Source: Sulfurihydrogenibium subterraneum DSM 15120
Lineage (GTDB): Bacteria > Aquificota > Aquificia > Aquificales > Hydrogenothermaceae
NCBI RefSeq assembly: GCF_000619805.1
Contig: NZ_JHUV01000010.1
Span: forward strand, 1-64,000
DNA length: 64,000 nt
Direction: 5' to 3'
The position numbers and the translations under genes are program-made. Shown in pieces: positions 37,192 to 46,010 of the stretch (positions are counted from its first letter, which is position 1; every line of letters starts with the position of its first letter). A model generated the notes under the pieces. That model did not search any database, had not been told where the DNA came from, and saw nothing but the letters and a program-made list of their open reading frames with translations.

Positions 37192-40100
37192 ATGATAAAG
37201 ACAACAAGAAGAAACTTTTTAAAGGGAGCTGCAGCTTCTATTGGAGCGGTTGCATTAGCAAAAGGAGTTTTTGAAAAAGTAGAAGCCGATAATAAAGTTG
37301 CAAACAATCAAGAGTTAACATTTGAGCCTAAACATTTGGACTACTATCCACCGTTTGAAAAGTGGAACGACTGGAAAGAGCCTGCAGGAAACTACTGGAA
37401 AATACACGGTGGAGCTCTAAGGGATGGTGTAAAACTTATTAACTATATGATTGTTCCAACTGTTTGTAATAACTGTGAAGCTGCATGTGGTTTAACAGCT
37501 TGGATAGATAAAGATACTTTAACTGTTAAAAAGTTTATGGGTAATCCTTTCCACTCTGGGTCAAGAGGAAGAAACTGTGCAAAAGGCTACGCAACACTTG
37601 CTCAAATGTACGACCCTGACAGAATACCATTTCCTCTAAAGAGAGCTCCTGGAAGCAAAAGAGGAGAAAATAAATGGGTTAGAACTACTTGGGAAGAAGC
37701 TTTAGAAACAATCGGAAAAAGAATGAGAGAAGTTCTCCTTAAAGGAGATGAAATATCAAGAAAACAGATTATTTATCAAGTTGGAAGACCTAACGAAAAT
37801 GGTTTTCACGTAAAAAGAGTTGTTTGGTCTTGGGGTGTAGATGGTAGAAATTCACACACTAATATATGCTCTTCAAATGGAAGATTTGGAAATATAGTCA
37901 CTGTAGGAGATGACAGAACTTCTCCAGACTTTGCAAACAGCAGGTTAATACTCCTTGTATCTTCTCACGCTGCAGATGCTGGACACTACTACCAACAACA
38001 CGCAGGATATATAGCAGATGCAAGGGCAAAAGGTGCAAAACTTGTAGTTATAGACCCAAGAATGTCAAATTCTGCTGGAATGGCAGACCTTTGGATTCCT
38101 GCATGGCCTGGAACAGAAGCTGCAATAAACCTTGCAATGATAAGCAGGCTTGTAAAAGAAGAAAAATTCAATAAAGATTTTGTAAAGAGATGGTTTAACT
38201 GGAAACAGTTTATAGAAGACAAAGAATACTTAAACTTCTTAAAAGAAAAAGGATTTTTAACAGAAGTACCTTCTGGAAATTCTTTTGAAGATTTTGTAGC
38301 AGTTTTAAAGGATATTTATAAAGACTATACGTTTGAATGGGCTGCTCAAGAAGCAAAAATTCCAGTATCTATGTTAGAAAAACTCTATGAGATGATACTT
38401 TGGGCTGGAGATAGAATAACTCAGTACCACTGGAGAGCTGTTGCTGCTGGAAACAGAGGTGGATGGATGGGTGCAGGTAGGACAGGAACAATACTTATGG
38501 CATTTATGGGTGCTATAGGAAATGTAGGAGGTGTAGGCTGGTACAAATGGCACACCATATCTATAGGAGATAGAGGTGGTAGCGCATGTATGGCTGATAC
38601 GCCTGAATCAGTTAAAGCTTGGAATGAACTTGAGTGGCCTCCAGAGTGGCCTATGTCTGCTTATGAGCTTAGCTATCTCTTACCTCACTTATTGATGGAT
38701 GATGAGTGGAGAAATAAATGGAAAGAAAAAGGTCTTAAAATACCTGATAAAGTAGAAGTTTGGTTTTCTAGAATATATAACCCAGTTTGGATTAACCCTG
38801 ACGGTTTTAGATGGGTTGAAGCGTTAAAAGATGAGAACAAGTTTGGTTTAACCATTTACATGTCTCCTATATGGGCTGAAACTGCCTTTTATTGTGATTA
38901 CATCTTACCTATGGGACTTGCAGGAGAAAGACATGATCAACACTCAGAACCTACTAAACCAGAAAAATGGACAGGATTTAGACAACCTGTTTTAAGAGTT
39001 GCATTACAAAAGATGGGCTGGAAACCAAACGACCCTGCAAAAGCTACATTAGAAGCTCACAAAAAAGTAGGTTTTGGTGAAATATGGGAAGAAGGCGAGT
39101 TTTTCGTTAACCTTGCATTTTCAATTGACCCAGATGGATCGTTAGGTATTAGAAAATACTGGGAATCAAAACAAAACCCAGGTAAACCTGTTACAATGGA
39201 AGAATATTACAACGCTGTATTTTCAACCCTACCAAAACTCAGTGAAGTGTGTAAACAACTTGGTATTACTCCTTACGAGTATATGAGAGACAGAGGAGCT
39301 TGGACAGAAGCGACAGATGTTTACAACGTACACGAAAAACCATTACCATACGACCCTGATAAAAAAGCTTATCAATACGATGGAAAGTGGATACCAGAGA
39401 GTGAGATAAAGATAGAAAACGATATAGCTTACCATGTAGAAGAAGGCGGTAAAAAACATAAAATAGGTATAGTTAAAGATGGAAAAATAATAAATGGATT
39501 TAAAACCCCTTCTGGACAGATAGAATTCTACTCTCTAACTTTAAAAGAGTGGAAATGGCCAGAGTATGCAATACCAATATATCCAAGAAACGCTGAAGAA
39601 AGAAAGCAGATGATTCACATCGTATCCCAAGTTCATCATGATTATATGAAAGAAGAAAACGCATTTGTATTAAACCCAATCTTCAGACTACCGTATCTAA
39701 TCCATACAAGGTCAGTAAATGCAAAATGGCTTATGGAAATAGGACAAAACCACAATCCTGTATGGATATACGAAAAAGATGCTAAAAGATTAGGTATCAA
39801 AAGAGGAGACGCTATAAAAGTAAGAGTAGTAGATACACTTACAGGTATAGAGACAGGATACTTTGTTGCAATGGCTATGCCTACACAAGCAACAAGACCT
39901 GGCGTGGTAGCTTGCTCTCACCATAACGGTAGATGGAGGCTTGTAAACGAGGTAAAAATAGATGGATTTAAACACGAGCTTGGTGTAATGAGATTAGGTT
40001 CTGTATTGGTTGATATTCAGCAAAAAGGCAGCCAGATTTTCATGAGAACTAAAGAAGGAGTAAAACCGTTTAAATCATGGCAGTTCCCTGAATTTAACAA

Positions 40101-40407
40101 AGATACAGAGCAAATATGGTGGAAAGGAACAACTGGCGTCTTCCAAAACGCAGTATTCCCAGCAAACCCAGACCCATTATCAGGTATGCAATGCTGGCAC
40201 AAGAAGGTTTTAATTGAGAAAGCAGGTCCTGAAGACAAGATAGGAGACGTGTTTGTAGATATAAACAAAACTTGGGAAGTTTACAAAGCTTGGAGAGACC
40301 AACTTACAAGACCTAACTACCAACCAGGTGGTTTGAGAAGACCTAAGTGGATGCCAAGACCTTGGTTCCCAATTGACGACGAGTACTGGAAATTCCCATC
40401 AGCATAA
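37192..40407 (+). CDS. Mo-bisMGD oxidoreductase catalytic subunit (PsrA/TtrA/SreA-like), sulfur compound
   Basis: 1071 aa with a Tat signal (TTRRNFLKGAAASIGAVALA), so periplasmic. FS0 [4Fe-4S] ligands are Cys92-x2-Cys95-x3-Cys99-x29-Cys129 (CNNCEAACG ... GRNCAKG). Cys226 in SHTNICSSNGRFG is a candidate Mo ligand. The molybdopterin dinucleotide-binding domain covers about residues 840-1000 (VSQVHHDYMKEEN; GIKRGDAIKVRVV; ACSHHNGRWR). The length and the B-C-A arrangement resemble tetrathionate, polysulfide or sulfur reductases and SoeABC. The direction of catalysis cannot be read from sequence. Ends at a strong terminator. Confidence 0.88.
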   Translation: MIKTTRRNFLKGAAASIGAVALAKGVFEKVEADNKVANNQELTFEPKHLDYYPPFEKWNDWKEPAGNYWKIHGGALRDGVKLINYMIVPTVCNNCEAACGLTAWIDKDTLTVKKFMGNPFHSGSRGRNCAKGYATLAQMYDPDRIPFPLKRAPGSKRGENKWVRTTWEEALETIGKRMREVLLKGDEISRKQIIYQVGRPNENGFHVKRVVWSWGVDGRNSHTNICSSNGRFGNIVTVGDDRTSPDFANSRLILLVSSHAADAGHYYQQHAGYIADARAKGAKLVVIDPRMSNSAGMADLWIPAWPGTEAAINLAMISRLVKEEKFNKDFVKRWFNWKQFIEDKEYLNFLKEKGFLTEVPSGNSFEDFVAVLKDIYKDYTFEWAAQEAKIPVSMLEKLYEMILWAGDRITQYHWRAVAAGNRGGWMGAGRTGTILMAFMGAIGNVGGVGWYKWHTISIGDRGGSACMADTPESVKAWNELEWPPEWPMSAYELSYLLPHLLMDDEWRNKWKEKGLKIPDKVEVWFSRIYNPVWINPDGFRWVEALKDENKFGLTIYMSPIWAETAFYCDYILPMGLAGERHDQHSEPTKPEKWTGFRQPVLRVALQKMGWKPNDPAKATLEAHKKVGFGEIWEEGEFFVNLAFSIDPDGSLGIRKYWESKQNPGKPVTMEEYYNAVFSTLPKLSEVCKQLGITPYEYMRDRGAWTEATDVYNVHEKPLPYDPDKKAYQYDGKWIPESEIKIENDIAYHVEEGGKKHKIGIVKDGKIINGFKTPSGQIEFYSLTLKEWKWPEYAIPIYPRNAEERKQMIHIVSQVHHDYMKEENAFVLNPIFRLPYLIHTRSVNAKWLMEIGQNHNPVWIYEKDAKRLGIKRGDAIKVRVVDTLTGIETGYFVAMAMPTQATRPGVVACSHHNGRWRLVNEVKIDGFKHELGVMRLGSVLVDIQQKGSQIFMRTKEGVKPFKSWQFPEFNKDTEQIWWKGTTGVFQNAVFPANPDPLSGMQCWHKKVLIEKAGPEDKIGDVFVDINKTWEVYKAWRDQLTRPNYQPGGLRRPKWMPRPWFPIDDEYWKFPSA

Positions 40408-40414
40408 ATCTATT

Positions 40415-40438
40415 AAGCGGGTTGAAAAAAACCCGCTT
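40415..40438 (+). terminator. Intrinsic terminator after the second molybdoenzyme
   Basis: AAGCGGGTT-GAAAAA-AACCCGCTT perfect 9-bp stem followed by TCTTTTTATATT. Confidence 0.93.
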
Positions 40439-40481
40439 TCTTTTTATATTAAAAATATCTCTTTTACTTTAGGAGAAACAA

Positions 40482-41126
40482 ATGGATGAAAAAATAGCAG
40501 AAAACCAAGCAAGGATAAACATGTACGCTTTTTTATCAAGACTTTTAGTTGAAGAAATAGATGAGGAGCTTCTAGATAAAATAAAATACACTCCAGAGTT
40601 GCTAGAACTTTTTCCAAACACAAAAGAGTGGGAAACCTTTAAAACAAAAACAACTAAACAGCTTATAGACGAAGACCTAAATGTAGACTATACTACTGTT
40701 TTTATACTTAATGCATACCCTTATCAATCTGTTTTTATGAACGATGAAGGGCATATAAACCCTACTCCTACAAATCCTACCTTACAGTTTTATTTAGAAA
40801 ACGGTTATGAGATAGACCTAAATAAAACAAGAGTCTTATCTCCAGACCACATAGCCATAGAACTTGAATTTATGATAACACTTATAAAAGAGCAACTTAC
40901 CGCCTATTCAATTAATAACCCAGAAGAAGAAAAAAAATATTTACAACTTCAAAAAAGATTTATGGAAGAACATCTATTACAGTGGGCTCCTATATACTTA
41001 CTGGCGGCAAGGGATATGGCAGAAACGCCTTTTTACTACGACGTTTGCCAGACAACCTTAGAGTTTATAATGTCAGACTATGAATACATACTACAGCAGT
41101 TAGAGGAATTTGAAAATGTCAGTTAG
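40482..41126 (+). CDS. TorD/DmsD-family molybdoenzyme chaperone
   Basis: 214-aa all-helical cytoplasmic protein that binds the Tat leader and apo-form of a molybdoenzyme until cofactor is inserted. Family features: an N-terminal YAFLSRLL segment, the central SPDHIAIELEFMITLI (consensus PDHIxxELEFM) and EEHLLQWAPIYL. It serves probably one or both neighbouring molybdoenzymes; no other chaperone of this type is in the window. AGGAG precedes the ATG. Its end overlaps the polyferredoxin gene by 11 nt. Confidence 0.87.
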   Translation: MDEKIAENQARINMYAFLSRLLVEEIDEELLDKIKYTPELLELFPNTKEWETFKTKTTKQLIDEDLNVDYTTVFILNAYPYQSVFMNDEGHINPTPTNPTLQFYLENGYEIDLNKTRVLSPDHIAIELEFMITLIKEQLTAYSINNPEEEKKYLQLQKRFMEEHLLQWAPIYLLAARDMAETPFYYDVCQTTLEFIMSDYEYILQQLEEFENVS

Positions 41127-42198
41127 ATTATCCTTTGATATATACTCCTGCGTAAGAGTTTACTACAGGTATGCAGACTGTAGAAAGTGTGTTGACGTAT
41201 GTCCTGTAGAAAACACTATAACTTTAGAAAACGACAAAATAAAAGTAAACTATGAAAACTGTATAAACTGTGGTGCCTGTGTAGGAAACTGTCCTACAGA
41301 AAGCTATAAAATTCAAGGTTTTGATTTACCAGAATTTTACTCTAAATTTATCCAAGAAGAAAACAACTTAATAAGCTGTAAGTTAAACGTTCCTTGTCTT
41401 TCCGCCTTAGATGAAAATTATCTAACAACTTTTTGTATAGAAAAAGAGAGGGATATTGTCTTAGATATAAAATACTGTCAAACCTGTAGTATAGGAAAAC
41501 AGTTAGACTTAATTAATAAAAATGTAGAAAAAGCAAATTATATACTTGAAGCTGTAGGCGTAGACTATAAGGTCAAAACAGAAGAAGTAGGCTACCAAAA
41601 GCCTGAAAGTAAAGAAAACAAAAGAAGGTCTTTTTTAAAGATGTTTGTAAAACAGACAGCTTCTTTAGCCTTTTGGGCAGTTGCTGAAAAACTTCCACCT
41701 ATTGATGAGTCTCAAACAGGAGACAGAGAGTTTAAAAACATAGTAAGTGAAAAAGTTTATCCTATTAAAAGAGAGATTTTAATCAATGCCTTATCAAAGT
41801 TAGATACAGAAGGTAAGTACTTTGAAGTAGATAAAATCGAGTTTTCTTCTGATAAATGGATAGACAACAACTGTACCAACTGCTCTATTTGTTATAATGT
41901 CTGTCCTACAGGAGCTCTAACATCAAGTGATAGTAAATTAAAAGTTCTATTTAGCCCTTCTTTATGTATTAAATGTAGAATATGCCACGACGTTTGCCCA
42001 GAAAAATGTATCCACTTGGAAGAAAAACTTTATGTGTCAGACTTTGTTTCTAAAAAGTATAAAGTTTTAGCTGAGCATGTTATGATACCTTGTAGCGAGT
42101 GTTTAGTGCCATTTTCTTACAAAGGAGATACGACGGTCTGTCCAAGATGTAGACAGCTTGAAGATGAACTAAGAGAGCTTCTTAAGATTGGAGATTGA
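41116..42198 (+). CDS. Polyferredoxin-like protein with internal twin-arginine motif and zinc-ribbon tail
   Basis: 360 aa from the ATG at 41116 (GAGGA about 8 nt upstream; TTG at 41110 is an alternative). Order of parts: two N-terminal [4Fe-4S] motifs (CRKCVDVCP at 22-30; CINCGACVGNCP at 49-60), a Cys-containing linker (CKLNVPC; CQTCSIG), an internal KRRSFLKMFVKQ twin-arginine-like motif at about 169-180 followed by a hydrophobic stretch, two more [4Fe-4S] motifs (CTNCSICYNVCP; CIKCRICHDVCP) and a Cys4 zinc-ribbon-like tail (CSEC...CPRC). Coupled to the TorD-like chaperone gene, suggesting maturation or electron transfer for the molybdoenzymes. The exact role is unknown. Confidence 0.72.
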   Translation: MSVRLSFDIYSCVRVYYRYADCRKCVDVCPVENTITLENDKIKVNYENCINCGACVGNCPTESYKIQGFDLPEFYSKFIQEENNLISCKLNVPCLSALDENYLTTFCIEKERDIVLDIKYCQTCSIGKQLDLINKNVEKANYILEAVGVDYKVKTEEVGYQKPESKENKRRSFLKMFVKQTASLAFWAVAEKLPPIDESQTGDREFKNIVSEKVYPIKREILINALSKLDTEGKYFEVDKIEFSSDKWIDNNCTNCSICYNVCPTGALTSSDSKLKVLFSPSLCIKCRICHDVCPEKCIHLEEKLYVSDFVSKKYKVLAEHVMIPCSECLVPFSYKGDTTVCPRCRQLEDELRELLKIGD

Positions 42199-42895
42199 CT
42201 GCTTTTATAAAAACTACATTAAAGTTTAACAATAAAGGTTTTTTATACTCTGAAAACTTTTTGTAAATCTTCCTTTTTTCTCCTATTGTACTTCCTGCTT
42301 TTCCTACTGAAGAACCTGTAAAATGAAGATGTAAAAGTAAATCTAATCCAGATTTAAACTCTAAGTTGTATTCTTTTGTTTCTAAATGCTGTATATTATA
42401 GTTTTTTGATAAAAGTTTAGTTAAATTTTCTACAGAGATAAAGTCAAAGTTTTTTTCTCCTAAAATCTTTTCAACCACTTTAAAGCTGTTTTCTACTGGC
42501 ATACAGAATAAAAATTTTCCATCTTTCTTTAAAACTCTGCTAATTTCATTAAAACTTTTTTCTAAATTAGTCCAATGTAAAGCAAAGTTAGACACAGCAT
42601 AATCAAAAGTGTTTGATTTAAAAGGTAGATTTTCTATATCTCCAACAATAATTTTTGGATTTTTATCTTTATAACTTTTTGCCATACTAAAAGATATGTC
42701 TAAACCTATAATATTTTTATTTAAAAAACTGGTTAATATTCCCGTTCCACAGCCTAAATCTATACCTAATCCATATAAATCTTTTGAAAGGTTTGCCAGT
42801 TTAATGGCAGTCTGTTTCTGAACGTAAATTTGAGTTTCATAACTTTTAATAGCTTTCGTGAAAGATATCTTTATTCTACTTTTACTGACAGACAA
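42182..42895 (-). CDS. bioC: Malonyl-ACP O-methyltransferase BioC
   Basis: Methylates malonyl-ACP so that it can prime fatty-acid synthesis towards pimeloyl-ACP methyl ester. The 237-aa class I SAM methyltransferase has GIDLGCGTGIL, FDYAVSNFALHWTNLEKS (the SNxALQWxxD-type BioC motif) and RVLKKDGKFLFCMP. It overlaps the bioH-like gene by 14 nt and ends in convergent overlap with the polyferredoxin gene. In isolation it could be a generic methyltransferase; the bioW/bioH context makes BioC likely. Confidence 0.82.
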   Translation of the reverse strand: MSVSKSRIKISFTKAIKSYETQIYVQKQTAIKLANLSKDLYGLGIDLGCGTGILTSFLNKNIIGLDISFSMAKSYKDKNPKIIVGDIENLPFKSNTFDYAVSNFALHWTNLEKSFNEISRVLKKDGKFLFCMPVENSFKVVEKILGEKNFDFISVENLTKLLSKNYNIQHLETKEYNLEFKSGLDLLLHLHFTGSSVGKAGSTIGEKRKIYKKFSEYKKPLLLNFNVVFIKAVNLQS

Positions 42896-43526
42896 CTTCC
42901 AACAAGTCCCTTTCTAAAAATGGTGCATGATGAGAGTCAAACAGATAAAGTTGACTGTTTTTTATTTTTTGACTGGTAAAAAATGCAGCTTCTTTGTTTA
43001 CTATTGTGTCTTTTATACCGTGTATTATGTGAGTTTCACATTCTATGCTTGGTAAAATATCTCTAAGGTCTAAGTTTATAAAGTCGTTAAGCAGTGCAAT
43101 ACTGCCATCTTTTTCTGGAACAAGGCATCCAGGGTCTTTTTCTACAGCTGATATTCTAAAATTTTTAACTGTTTTTTCAAAATCTTTTTTAAGGTTTATC
43201 ATAAACGCTTTTATACTTGCCTTTGGACTTCCAAGTTTTTCATCTTCAAATTTAGGACTAAAACCTATAAGTACTAATTTTTTAATATTTTTATTTTTTA
43301 AAGCAGTTAAAACGCTTACGGAAGCTCCTAAAGACCATCCTATTAAAGTTGTAGGCTGGTTAATACTATTTGATATGTAATTTGAAAAAGATTCTATAGA
43401 TATAAATGTATAATCTTTATTTCCACCGTGAAAAGGAAGGTCTAAAAACTCTGCATTATCTAAGTAAAAGTAATCACTCCATACATTCTTAGAAAAACCC
43501 CATCCGTGAATGAAAATTCTTCTCAC
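42882..43526 (-). CDS. bioH: Pimeloyl-ACP methyl ester carboxylesterase, BioH/BioG-like
   Basis: 214-aa alpha/beta hydrolase: RRIFIHGWGFSKNVW at the N-terminus, nucleophile Ser in GWSLGASVS, probable acid in HGIKDTIV (Asp), and His in DSHHAPFLE. BioH has GWSLGG. Some lineages use the analogous esterases BioG, BioK or BioJ, so the exact subtype is uncertain. Its place between bioW and bioC (4- and 14-nt overlaps) supports the role of cleaving the methyl ester of pimeloyl-ACP methyl ester. Confidence 0.78.
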   Translation of the reverse strand: MRRIFIHGWGFSKNVWSDYFYLDNAEFLDLPFHGGNKDYTFISIESFSNYISNSINQPTTLIGWSLGASVSVLTALKNKNIKKLVLIGFSPKFEDEKLGSPKASIKAFMINLKKDFEKTVKNFRISAVEKDPGCLVPEKDGSIALLNDFINLDLRDILPSIECETHIIHGIKDTIVNKEAAFFTSQKIKNSQLYLFDSHHAPFLERDLLEVVCQ

Positions 43527-44260
43527 TGTAAATCCCCTAAATTTTTTATCAAAAATGCTTTTTTTTCTAAGTATTCATAAAGATCTTCTATATTTACTGT
43601 ATCCTTTACAAAGTATATTCTACCACCTTTTTCGTTTGATTTTTGTTTTAATGGGTTTATTCTGTAGTAGGTTGTTTTGGTTGCAACATATCCAATTGTA
43701 TAATCTGGGTCATCTGATATACAGTATTCTGCTACTATACTTACATGGTTTAGATTTTTTGTAGCCAAGGCTATTGCATCTACTGTTCTTTCTGTGTATC
43801 CTTTTTCTTTTAAAAGTTGTGTAATACTCTCTCTGTCTTCAAAATCTACGTTAACTGTTCTTACGCCTCTTATTTTATCCTTTTCTAATCTTTCTCCTGA
43901 TAGACTTACTATCATTGCACCTCTCATATTTTCTCCATCTGCAGCTCCCTGATGAATCAGATCTATATACTTTTCTGCTACTTTTTTATCTACTCCTTGG
44001 TTTTGCAAAATTTCAACCGCTACTTTATTGCCTTCTATCCAATCTTTAACATTAAATGTTTTTATGTTTAGGCTTTTTTCTATGTAGTGTAAATCATTTA
44101 TCTTTTCGACCTTTATGTTTAAAAAGTCAAAATCTTTAGGTCTTTGGGAGAGCTGGCTTATAACAATAGGTAAGTCCTCTTTTAAAACTATTCTCTCAGC
44201 TCCTGAAATGTGTTTTCCTTGTAAGCTTGCTCTCATTTTTACAGAGAAGTACTCTTTCAT
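43523..44260 (-). CDS. bioW: 6-carboxyhexanoate-CoA ligase BioW
   Basis: Activates free pimelate to pimeloyl-CoA. 245 aa, matching known BioW. Diagnostic sequences are FSVKMRASLQGKHISGAERIV, GAADGENMRGAM and IRGVRTVNVDF (quoted in part). It overlaps the thioesterase gene upstream and the bioH-like gene downstream, each by 4 nt (ATGA-type). The presence of BioW with BioC/BioH is unusual (see findings). bioF, bioA, bioD and bioB are not in the window. Confidence 0.92.
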   Translation of the reverse strand: MKEYFSVKMRASLQGKHISGAERIVLKEDLPIVISQLSQRPKDFDFLNIKVEKINDLHYIEKSLNIKTFNVKDWIEGNKVAVEILQNQGVDKKVAEKYIDLIHQGAADGENMRGAMIVSLSGERLEKDKIRGVRTVNVDFEDRESITQLLKEKGYTERTVDAIALATKNLNHVSIVAEYCISDDPDYTIGYVATKTTYYRINPLKQKSNEKGGRIYFVKDTVNIEDLYEYLEKKAFLIKNLGDLQ

Positions 44261-44649
44261 TCCAGTACGTGTTTATCTAAAACGTAGCATTTAAACAATC
44301 CTTCAAAAAACTGCTGATTAGAATCTTCTATGTGTCCTACTACTTTAACTGTAATTTTCTTTCCTTCTTGAGATATTACTTCACTTTGAAAAATTGCATT
44401 TTGACCTAACTTCAGTGGTTTTAAAAACTTTACTTCTGCACCGCCTAAAACTACATTAGGGTGGTTCACTGTTAACATAGCACAGTAGTCTGCAGCTGAG
44501 AAGATGAATCCTCCGTGTATAAGTCCTTTTTCGTCTGCTACCATTCTCTCGTCTGTAATTAGTTTCACTGTGGCGGTTTTGCATTCTTCTATGGATACAG
44601 GGTATCCACTTAGAGAGTTGTCTATCTTATGGTGAGTTTTTATCTGCAT
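44257..44649 (-). CDS. Hotdog-fold thioesterase of the pimelate cluster
   Basis: 130-aa PaaI/FapR-type hotdog protein with GLIHGGFIFSAADYCAMLTVN (the HGG-x9-14-D helix motif) and LGGAEVKFLKPLKLGQNAIF. It lacks the N-terminal HTH of FapR, so an enzymatic role is expected: hydrolysis of an acyl thioester. Immediately upstream of bioW with a 4-nt overlap, it could release free pimelate from pimeloyl-ACP for BioW to activate (inference). Confidence 0.8.
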   Translation of the reverse strand: MQIKTHHKIDNSLSGYPVSIEECKTATVKLITDERMVADEKGLIHGGFIFSAADYCAMLTVNHPNVVLGGAEVKFLKPLKLGQNAIFQSEVISQEGKKITVKVVGHIEDSNQQFFEGLFKCYVLDKHVLE

Positions 44650-44650
44650 T

Positions 44651-45256
44651 TTACAACCTCTTACTTCCTTCTCTGATTACTTTTATTTTACCGTTTTCTA
44701 CTTTTACTATGGTTGATGGAACATTTTTTTCAACCTTTCCACTGTCAACATAAAGGTCTATACTGTCTTTAAAGTATTCTATCGCTTTTTCTATGTCTTC
44801 AGCGGGTGTTAAGTCTGATGGGTTTGCACTTGGAGCTACAACTGGTCTTCCTAACTCTTTTAAAAAAGATAGAAAAACAGAGTCATCTGGAATCCTAAAG
44901 CCTAATGAGTTTTTGCCTCTATGTAGATACTGAAACTCTCCTTTATGGTCTTCTACATCAAATATTACGGTAATACCTTTTTTATTTAAAATCTTTTCTC
45001 CTTGAGGATTAGGTTTTATGTTAAATTTTTTTAAATCTTCCGAAGATGGTATTAGTATGATAAAAGGTTTGTCTTCTGGTCTTCCTTTGAGTTTGTATAT
45101 TTTTTCAACGGCTTGTTTGTTTAATGCGTCTGCAAGTATGCCGTAAATTGTGTCTGTTTTTGCAATAACTAATTTTCCTTGTTTTATGTAAGGGATTGCA
45201 TCAAAAAGGTTATTTGATACTTTAATATGAGTATTCATCTGTTGGAAATTTTCCAT
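44651..45256 (-). CDS. tsaC: L-threonylcarbamoyladenylate synthase (TsaC/Sua5 family)
   Basis: Makes the TC-AMP intermediate of t6A37 tRNA modification. 201 aa, the YrdC-only form. Motifs: VIAKTDTIYGILADA, YKLKGRPEDKPFIIL, and VVAPSANPSD. The start given overlaps panB by 35 nt; an in-frame ATG at 45238 (MNTHIKVSNNL) would also give a complete YrdC domain. The thioesterase gene follows directly. Confidence 0.9.
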   Translation of the reverse strand: MENFQQMNTHIKVSNNLFDAIPYIKQGKLVIAKTDTIYGILADALNKQAVEKIYKLKGRPEDKPFIILIPSSEDLKKFNIKPNPQGEKILNKKGITVIFDVEDHKGEFQYLHRGKNSLGFRIPDDSVFLSFLKELGRPVVAPSANPSDLTPAEDIEKAIEYFKDSIDLYVDSGKVEKNVPSTIVKVENGKIKVIREGSKRL

Positions 45257-46010
45257 CTTTTACCTCTTGATTGTAGGAAGATAGAGCCTGTTTTATTAGT
45301 TTGCCTGCTTCAAGGTATCTTTTTACAAACTTAGGTGTTTTTTCAAATATTCCTATCAGGTCGTGGAAAACAAGTACTTGTCCATCTGTATCTTTTCCAG
45401 CTCCTATGCCTATGGTAGGTATTTTTAAGCTATCTGTTATTGTTTTTGCTAAATCTGACGGGACAGCTTCTAACACTATAGAAAAAGCTCCAGATTCTTC
45501 TAATGCTTGTGCATCTTCTAATATTCTTTTTCTACTGTCTATGGTTTTACCTTGGACTTTGTAGCCTCCAAAGAGGTTTATAAATTGCGGCGTTAATCCT
45601 AAATGTCCCATTACTGGTATTCCTATGGATACTAATTTTTTTGTGATTTCTAAAACTATTCCAGCTCCTTCTAACTTAACTGCGTTTGATCCTGATTCTT
45701 TTATTACTCTACCTGCATTTTTAACAGCTTCTTCTACTGAGGTGTGATAACTCATAAATGGCATATCTACAACTATAAAAGTGTTTGGAGCTCCTTTTCT
45801 AACAGCTTTAGCGTGATAAATCATTTCATCTAATGATACTGGCAGAGTTGAGTTGTTGCCTTGAATTACCATCCCAAGAGAATCTCCAACAAGAATGGCA
45901 TCTATTCCAGATTCTTCACAGAGTTTTGCAGACCAGTAGTCATAGGTAGATATCATAGTTATTTTTTGCCCTAACTCTTTTGCTTTAAAAAACTGTGTAA
46001 TGTCTTTCAA
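45222..46010 (-). CDS. panB: 3-methyl-2-oxobutanoate hydroxymethyltransferase
   Basis: First committed step of pantothenate synthesis, adding a hydroxymethyl group from methylene-THF to ketoisovalerate. 262 aa with MISTYDYWSAKLCEESGIDAILVGDSLGMV (quoted here as GDSLGMVIQGNNSTLPV), KLEGAG, VMGHLGLTPQ and the late GAGKDTDGQVLVFHDL. Typical length. First gene of the panB-tsaC-thioesterase-bioWHC run on the minus strand, which thus concerns CoA and acyl-CoA precursors. Confidence 0.95.
   Translation of the reverse strand: MKDITQFFKAKELGQKITMISTYDYWSAKLCEESGIDAILVGDSLGMVIQGNNSTLPVSLDEMIYHAKAVRKGAPNTFIVVDMPFMSYHTSVEEAVKNAGRVIKESGSNAVKLEGAGIVLEITKKLVSIGIPVMGHLGLTPQFINLFGGYKVQGKTIDSRKRILEDAQALEESGAFSIVLEAVPSDLAKTITDSLKIPTIGIGAGKDTDGQVLVFHDLIGIFEKTPKFVKRYLEAGKLIKQALSSYNQEVKDGKFPTDEYSY

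Follow-up and report, generated by a model that had tools for sequence, protein, structure and literature searches.

Coexistence of BioC, BioH and BioW across the Aquificota and a possible sequential route to pimeloyl-CoA

Introduction

Where does the pimelate activated by the ligase BioW come from? The question is raised by a stretch of 64,000 nucleotides (nt) from the hot-spring bacterium Sulfurihydrogenibium subterraneum DSM 15120 (contig NZ_JHUV01000010.1, positions 1 to 64,000; hereafter the window), in which bioW stands beside a bioH-like gene, a bioC-like gene and a gene for a hotdog-fold thioesterase. These are enzyme sets usually described as alternatives for the early steps of biotin synthesis. 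In the window they stand in one row of overlapping genes, and their joint retention in almost all good genomes of the phylum suggests successive steps of one pathway.

The pathway of Escherichia coli, like the window, combines a BioC-type methyltransferase with a BioH-type serine esterase; its pimeloyl-acyl carrier protein (ACP) is passed straight to BioF, and there is no BioW. In Bacillus subtilis, as expected for the window, BioW turns free pimelate into pimeloyl-coenzyme A (CoA), and the cytochrome P450 BioI is also present. According to a 2024 review, no strain, B. subtilis included, has a known pathway to the pimelate that BioW uses (PMC11089781). Genes for both sets have been known in one organism since 2004: Desulfuromonas carries bioC-bioH together with bioW, which was read as two different pathways (Rodionov et al. 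2004, PMC545781). Here, we examine whether the two sets in the window, and in the phylum to which it belongs, are better read as one route or as two.

Results

We find that the four genes described in the initial annotation as overlapping are real; they occupy the minus strand of the window, with overlaps of 4, 4 and 14 nt. In order of transcription, they are:

44257..44649, minus: hotdog-fold (4HBT) thioesterase-like protein, PH1136 / FapR-C-terminal-like (130 amino acids (aa); from a profile search)
43523..44260, minus: bioW, 6-carboxyhexanoate (pimelate)-CoA ligase (245 aa; family models over cut-off)
42882..43526, minus: BioH-like short alpha/beta hydrolase (214 aa; GTG start; triad Ser65-Asp173-His200)
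42182..42895, minus: BioC-like S-adenosylmethionine (SAM)-dependent malonyl-ACP O-methyltransferase (237 aa; TTG start; best model TIGR02072)

Relatives repeat nearly identical overlaps among these genes. The coexistence of BioC, BioH and BioW also extends far beyond the window, as a co-occurrence survey of the kind proposed in the initial annotation makes clear. We sampled 136 Aquificota genomes, 88 of which were good (completeness 90% or more, contamination 5% or less). BioW was detected in 121 genomes (86 of the good ones), BioC in 122 (84), and BioH in 118 (84). All three occur together in 110 of the 136 genomes and, as counted from the presence lists, in 83 of the 88 good genomes. Of the other five, G007 and G113 have none of the three, while BioC and BioH are missing from G063, BioC from G021 and BioH from G024. 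A Fisher value for this co-occurrence ignores kinship and is not readable as a probability.

The later pathway is complete in the window's own genome, where bioF (C11:187381-188427), bioA, bioB and bioD all score over their cut-offs. At the threshold applied, 86 of the 88 good genomes have a bioF match. No P450 (BioI) was found in any of the 136 genomes, and on this ground we rejected BioI as the source of pimelate in the phylum. The Aquifex aeolicus genome (G001) belongs to the same pattern: its BioW is identical to the crystallized A. aeolicus enzyme at 240 of 240 residues, and its bioH and bioC lie side by side at C1:1504932-1506135. We found no prior report of BioC/BioH together with BioW in the Aquificota in the open-access literature searched. 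The coexistence is confirmed in the window, and its extension to the phylum is new here; the combination as such was known from Desulfuromonas.

A separate observation concerns genus g23 (G112 and G113): no other genus lacks BioW, BioC and BioH altogether. The match to BioF is far weaker there, too (285 to 303 bits), which suggests, as far as gene content can tell, that the genus lost biotin synthesis as a unit.

As judged by sequence, the assignment of the window BioW is unambiguous. It scores over the curated cut-offs of PF03744 (253.6 bits; cut-off 25), NF002360 (285.9; 226) and TIGR01204 (218.8; 193.6), and its closest solved relative is the A. aeolicus enzyme. The residues that bind pimelate in the latter, Tyr188, Tyr200 and Arg202 (PMC9544090), are present in the window protein and invariant in our alignment as Y187, Y199 and R201 (numbered by the first row, which is the paper's numbering minus one).

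The BioC-like and BioH-like proteins are both divergent in sequence, each with its own family as the best-scoring model. For the BioC-like protein, the top model is TIGR02072, with 118.6 bits against a cut-off of 185; the best family other than BioC reaches 46.7. Several Desulfuromonadales BioC proteins encoded in bio operons also fall under this cut-off (162 to 182 bits). The nearest solved protein, ranked first in a profile search of the PDB, is BioC 8x8i. The window protein carries the N-terminal motif of BioC, with Y19 and Q26 invariant, and retains SAM motif I (D-x-G-x-GT). The conserved Phe, Tyr and Gln of the N-terminal motif are common to Aquificota BioC-like proteins and Desulfuromonadales BioC, and are missing from background methyltransferases.

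In a phylogenetic tree, the BioC-like proteins of the Aquificota group in a single clade (support 99/98), within which the branching order tracks the families of the phylum. This indicates that the gene is old and has been vertically kept. The fork that divides BioC from the background methyltransferases is weak (51/47), and thus the tree alone is no proof of orthology. Taken together with the N-terminal motif, however, it makes a mis-assigned methyltransferase unlikely. In one genus, another methyltransferase gene lies directly upstream of bioW (L040:1526-2167, plus strand); its product groups with the background, and the true bioC is located elsewhere in the genome.

The catalytic triad of the BioH-like protein (S65, D173, H200) is invariant across 26 sequences. 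Its AlphaFold2 model is confident (predicted local distance difference test score 94), and the highest TM-scores among the matches listed for it are those of E. coli BioH (0.87 for 4etw, and 0.86), with plant strigolactone-receptor-type hydrolases close behind. The esterase is shorter than that of E. coli (214 versus about 256 aa). The ACP-contacting arginines of E. coli BioH are R138, R142, R155 and R159. In the window protein, Lys aligns with R138 and Asn with R142, a family-invariant Arg124 lies nearby, and the short cap prevents alignment of R155 and R159. We also considered a BioG identity for the esterase and rejected it, as Pfam matches up to E 10 include general alpha/beta hydrolases alone.

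The thioesterase has a 4HBT fold (PF03061, 29.8 bits), and its nearest solved relative is Pyrococcus PH1136 (1ixl, E 4.5e-30). It shares this fold with the PH1136 / HP0420 / Cj0977 / FapR-like hotdog family, which is elsewhere untied to biotin genes. His45 and Asp54 (HGGFIFSAAD) are conserved in the clustered protein, which retains the HGG motif that Cj0977 lacks in the alignment. The ligand domain of FapR binds malonyl thioesters.

The initial annotation had cast this thioesterase as the enzyme that links the two halves, hydrolyzing pimeloyl-ACP to the pimelate that BioW needs. Its distribution does not support such a link as a general rule. The family occurs in 93 of the 136 genomes (66 of the 88 good ones), nearly always as a single copy. 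Among the loci examined, just two genera, the window's own and g6, have it next to bioW, with tight linkage in all eight of their loci; outside these two genera, its neighbors are unrelated to biotin. With a threshold of E 1e-8, 21 of the 83 good genomes that have BioW, BioC and BioH lack it, among them G104 and G097, which belong to the same family as the window. In A. aeolicus, a member of the thioesterase family forms the N-terminal part of a fusion with MtnA, the S-methyl-5-thioribose-1-phosphate isomerase of methionine salvage (L124:4290-5657, minus strand), hinting at a role outside biotin synthesis. We thus reject the thioesterase as a universal link.

The clustered copies group in one clade whose branch length is unremarkable, and they have the same His and Asp as the non-clustered copies. 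Other 4HBT proteins are present in most of the tested genomes that lack the thioesterase, and none was found in G097, so that no single replacement can be named from a generic 4HBT supply. The clustered thioesterase thus looks most like a hotdog hydrolase of general function that one lineage drew into its biotin operon; in the window's genus it may act as the linking enzyme.

The arrangement of the genes varies across the phylum. In the Hydrogenothermaceae, the gene after bioW is bioH in most genera, and bioC follows in several. In 11 of the 19 loci of this family with BioH, bioH follows bioW directly or past one small open reading frame (ORF), without the thioesterase. The second large family of the order mostly has bioH and bioC side by side, away from bioW, and in family f5 (e.g., G122) all three genes are separate.

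The initial annotation assumed that organisms usually rely on one route. This holds for many BioW genomes, as 29 of the 42 sampled outside the Aquificota have no strong BioC (>160 bits; present in the other 13), but not for the Aquificota or the Desulfuromonadales. Desulfuromonadales operons run bioW-bioF-bioH-bioC, and one metagenome-assembled genome of the Bacilli has bioH-bioC-bioW-bioF, the last gene being named from its start only; neither includes a thioesterase gene. On the evidence of these gene orders, operon linkage of bioW with bioH-bioC has arisen more than once. Desulfuromonas has the same three early genes per genome as the Aquificota, but with bioF inside the operon, whereas in the Aquificota bioF is located elsewhere and the combination is phylum-wide.

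In six loci from four other Hydrogenothermaceae genera, an uncharacterized gene of 116 to 121 aa overlaps the end of bioW and lies between bioW and bioH (L043:7342-7701, L039:7659-8024, L040:2917-3279, L044:7574-7924, L045:6331-6681 and L047:6710-7063). Two members searched had no Pfam, NCBIfam or PADLOC matches; the structure model is confident and mostly helical.

In the window, the run of genes extends upstream past the part initially annotated, to two further members:

44651..45256, minus: sua5/tsaC-type L-threonylcarbamoyladenylate synthase, upstream of the thioesterase-bioW-bioH-bioC genes
45222..46010, minus: panB, ketopantoate hydroxymethyltransferase, farther upstream than sua5

The full order is panB, sua5, thioesterase, bioW, bioH-like and bioC-like, with spacings of -35, +1, -4, -4 and -14 nt. 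Converging on bioC from the other side (37192-42198, plus strand) are a large molybdopterin-oxidoreductase-like gene, a small possible assembly-chaperone gene and an iron-sulfur protein gene, all named by eye. The last plus-strand ORF of this group shares 17 nt with the 3' end of bioC.

Discussion

We read the cluster, with the balance tipped slightly in favor, as the early pimelate-forming part of biotin synthesis organized as one hybrid route. Going by family membership, BioC would methylate malonyl-ACP, fatty acid synthesis would extend the product to methyl-pimeloyl-ACP, and the BioH-like esterase would strip the methyl group. Release of the chain from ACP as pimelate would then fall to a hydrolase that varies within the phylum. 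In the window's genus, a candidate for this step is the clustered hotdog protein, whose gene is apparently co-transcribed with the others; elsewhere another enzyme would be needed, possibly the BioH-like protein itself. Finally, BioW would use ATP and CoA to convert pimelate into pimeloyl-CoA for BioF, a reaction that is established chemistry for BioW and is predicted for this organism.

We infer this order, in which BioC/BioH act before BioW and a BioF preference for the CoA thioester makes BioW necessary, from the joint retention of both halves. With redundant routes, the loss of one or the other would be expected in some of these small genomes; neither has been lost, and BioC/BioH and BioW may thus be steps of one route. 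The B. subtilis BioF, which cannot use pimeloyl-ACP (PMC11089781, PMC7645780), is a precedent for a CoA-requiring BioF. Given that no BioI-type P450 is present and that the origin of BioW's pimelate is not known, BioC/BioH are a sensible and testable source. It is an evenly balanced proposition that the Aquificota proteins form one obligatory pathway, from the ACP methyl ester through free pimelate to the CoA thioester via BioW. The interpretation offered in the initial annotation therefore stands in part: the coexistence of BioC/BioH with BioW holds and widens to the phylum, while the thioesterase drops out as the general link.

Several points weigh against a single route. The BioH-like protein scores 80.3 bits on its top model, TIGR01738, far under the cut-off of 207, and in Aquificaceae-type genomes BioC reaches only 69 to 81 bits on TIGR02072, near the background methyltransferases. 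With both proteins under curated cut-offs, their functional assignment depends on the clade, the N-terminal motif and the pairing of BioC with BioH. No consistently linked hydrolase for the release step was found in the Aquificota loci or the Desulfuromonadales operons. A CoA preference of BioF in the Aquificota is putative. Geobacter retains bioC-bioH without bioW (PMC545781), so BioC/BioH can act alone elsewhere. Furthermore, co-occurrence within a single phylum does not constitute independent evidence.

The main rival is that two routes operate in parallel: BioF would use pimeloyl-ACP made by BioC/BioH directly, BioW would recover leaked or imported pimelate, and the genes would be clustered because they serve the same vitamin. 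This is how Rodionov et al. read Desulfuromonas; the E. coli BioF accepts both thioesters (PMC6138646), and a dedicated linking hydrolase is not conserved. A salvage enzyme would, however, be expected to be lost sometimes, and BioW and BioC/BioH are almost never apart in the 88 good genomes, which leaves parallel operation somewhat unlikely. The remaining alternative is that the BioC-like and BioH-like proteins are mis-assigned, make no pimeloyl chains, and leave BioW with pimelate from an unknown route, as in B. subtilis. Both proteins do fall under curated cut-offs, and BioH, like BioC, scores low in Aquificaceae-type genomes (53 to 79 bits). Yet TIGR02072 and TIGR01738 outscore all other models in each member tested, the BioC motif is shared with Desulfuromonadales, the triad is invariant, and the placement of an esterase gene directly before bioC is a standard arrangement (PMC3494674). 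We consider mis-assignment very improbable.

Two further proposals are versions of the single route, not exclusive with it, and differ in which enzyme releases pimelate. The clustered hotdog thioesterase could be a dedicated hydrolase of pimeloyl-ACP or methyl-pimeloyl-ACP. It overlaps bioW in all eight loci of the two genera (by 4 nt in seven), its catalytic-type His and Asp are invariant, and it has distant similarity to the FapR ligand domain. On the other side stand the patchy distribution and MtnA fusion described above, and the clustered copies show no special acceleration or active-site change. In addition, the closest solved relative comes from Pyrococcus, and the Thermococcales are reported to have bioB only (PMC6138646). 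Alternatively, the BioH-like enzyme itself may free pimelate, by cleaving both methyl ester and thioester or by acting on free monomethyl pimelate. Such an activity would suit a short hydrolase in which the positions of R138 and R142, which contact ACP in E. coli BioH, are not Arg, and it would suit the Hydrogenothermaceae loci and Desulfuromonadales bioWFHC operons that lack the thioesterase. But BioH-type esterases are variable in general, the thioesterase activity is putative, and the top structural match among those listed is an ordinary BioH. Either identity of the releasing enzyme is, to the same degree, doubtful.

Here, we present a phylum that keeps BioC, BioH and BioW without BioI, and thus a concrete candidate for the source of pimelate together with a clean genetic test. 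Of the readings compared, we prefer the sequential one, which has about even chances of being right. If it is true, a biosynthetic source of pimelate would have been identified for the first time in organisms with BioW, among them A. aeolicus, whose enzyme provided a reference BioW structure. The acyl-donor specificity of BioF would then explain the apparently wasteful expenditure of ATP in moving the acyl chain from ACP to CoA.

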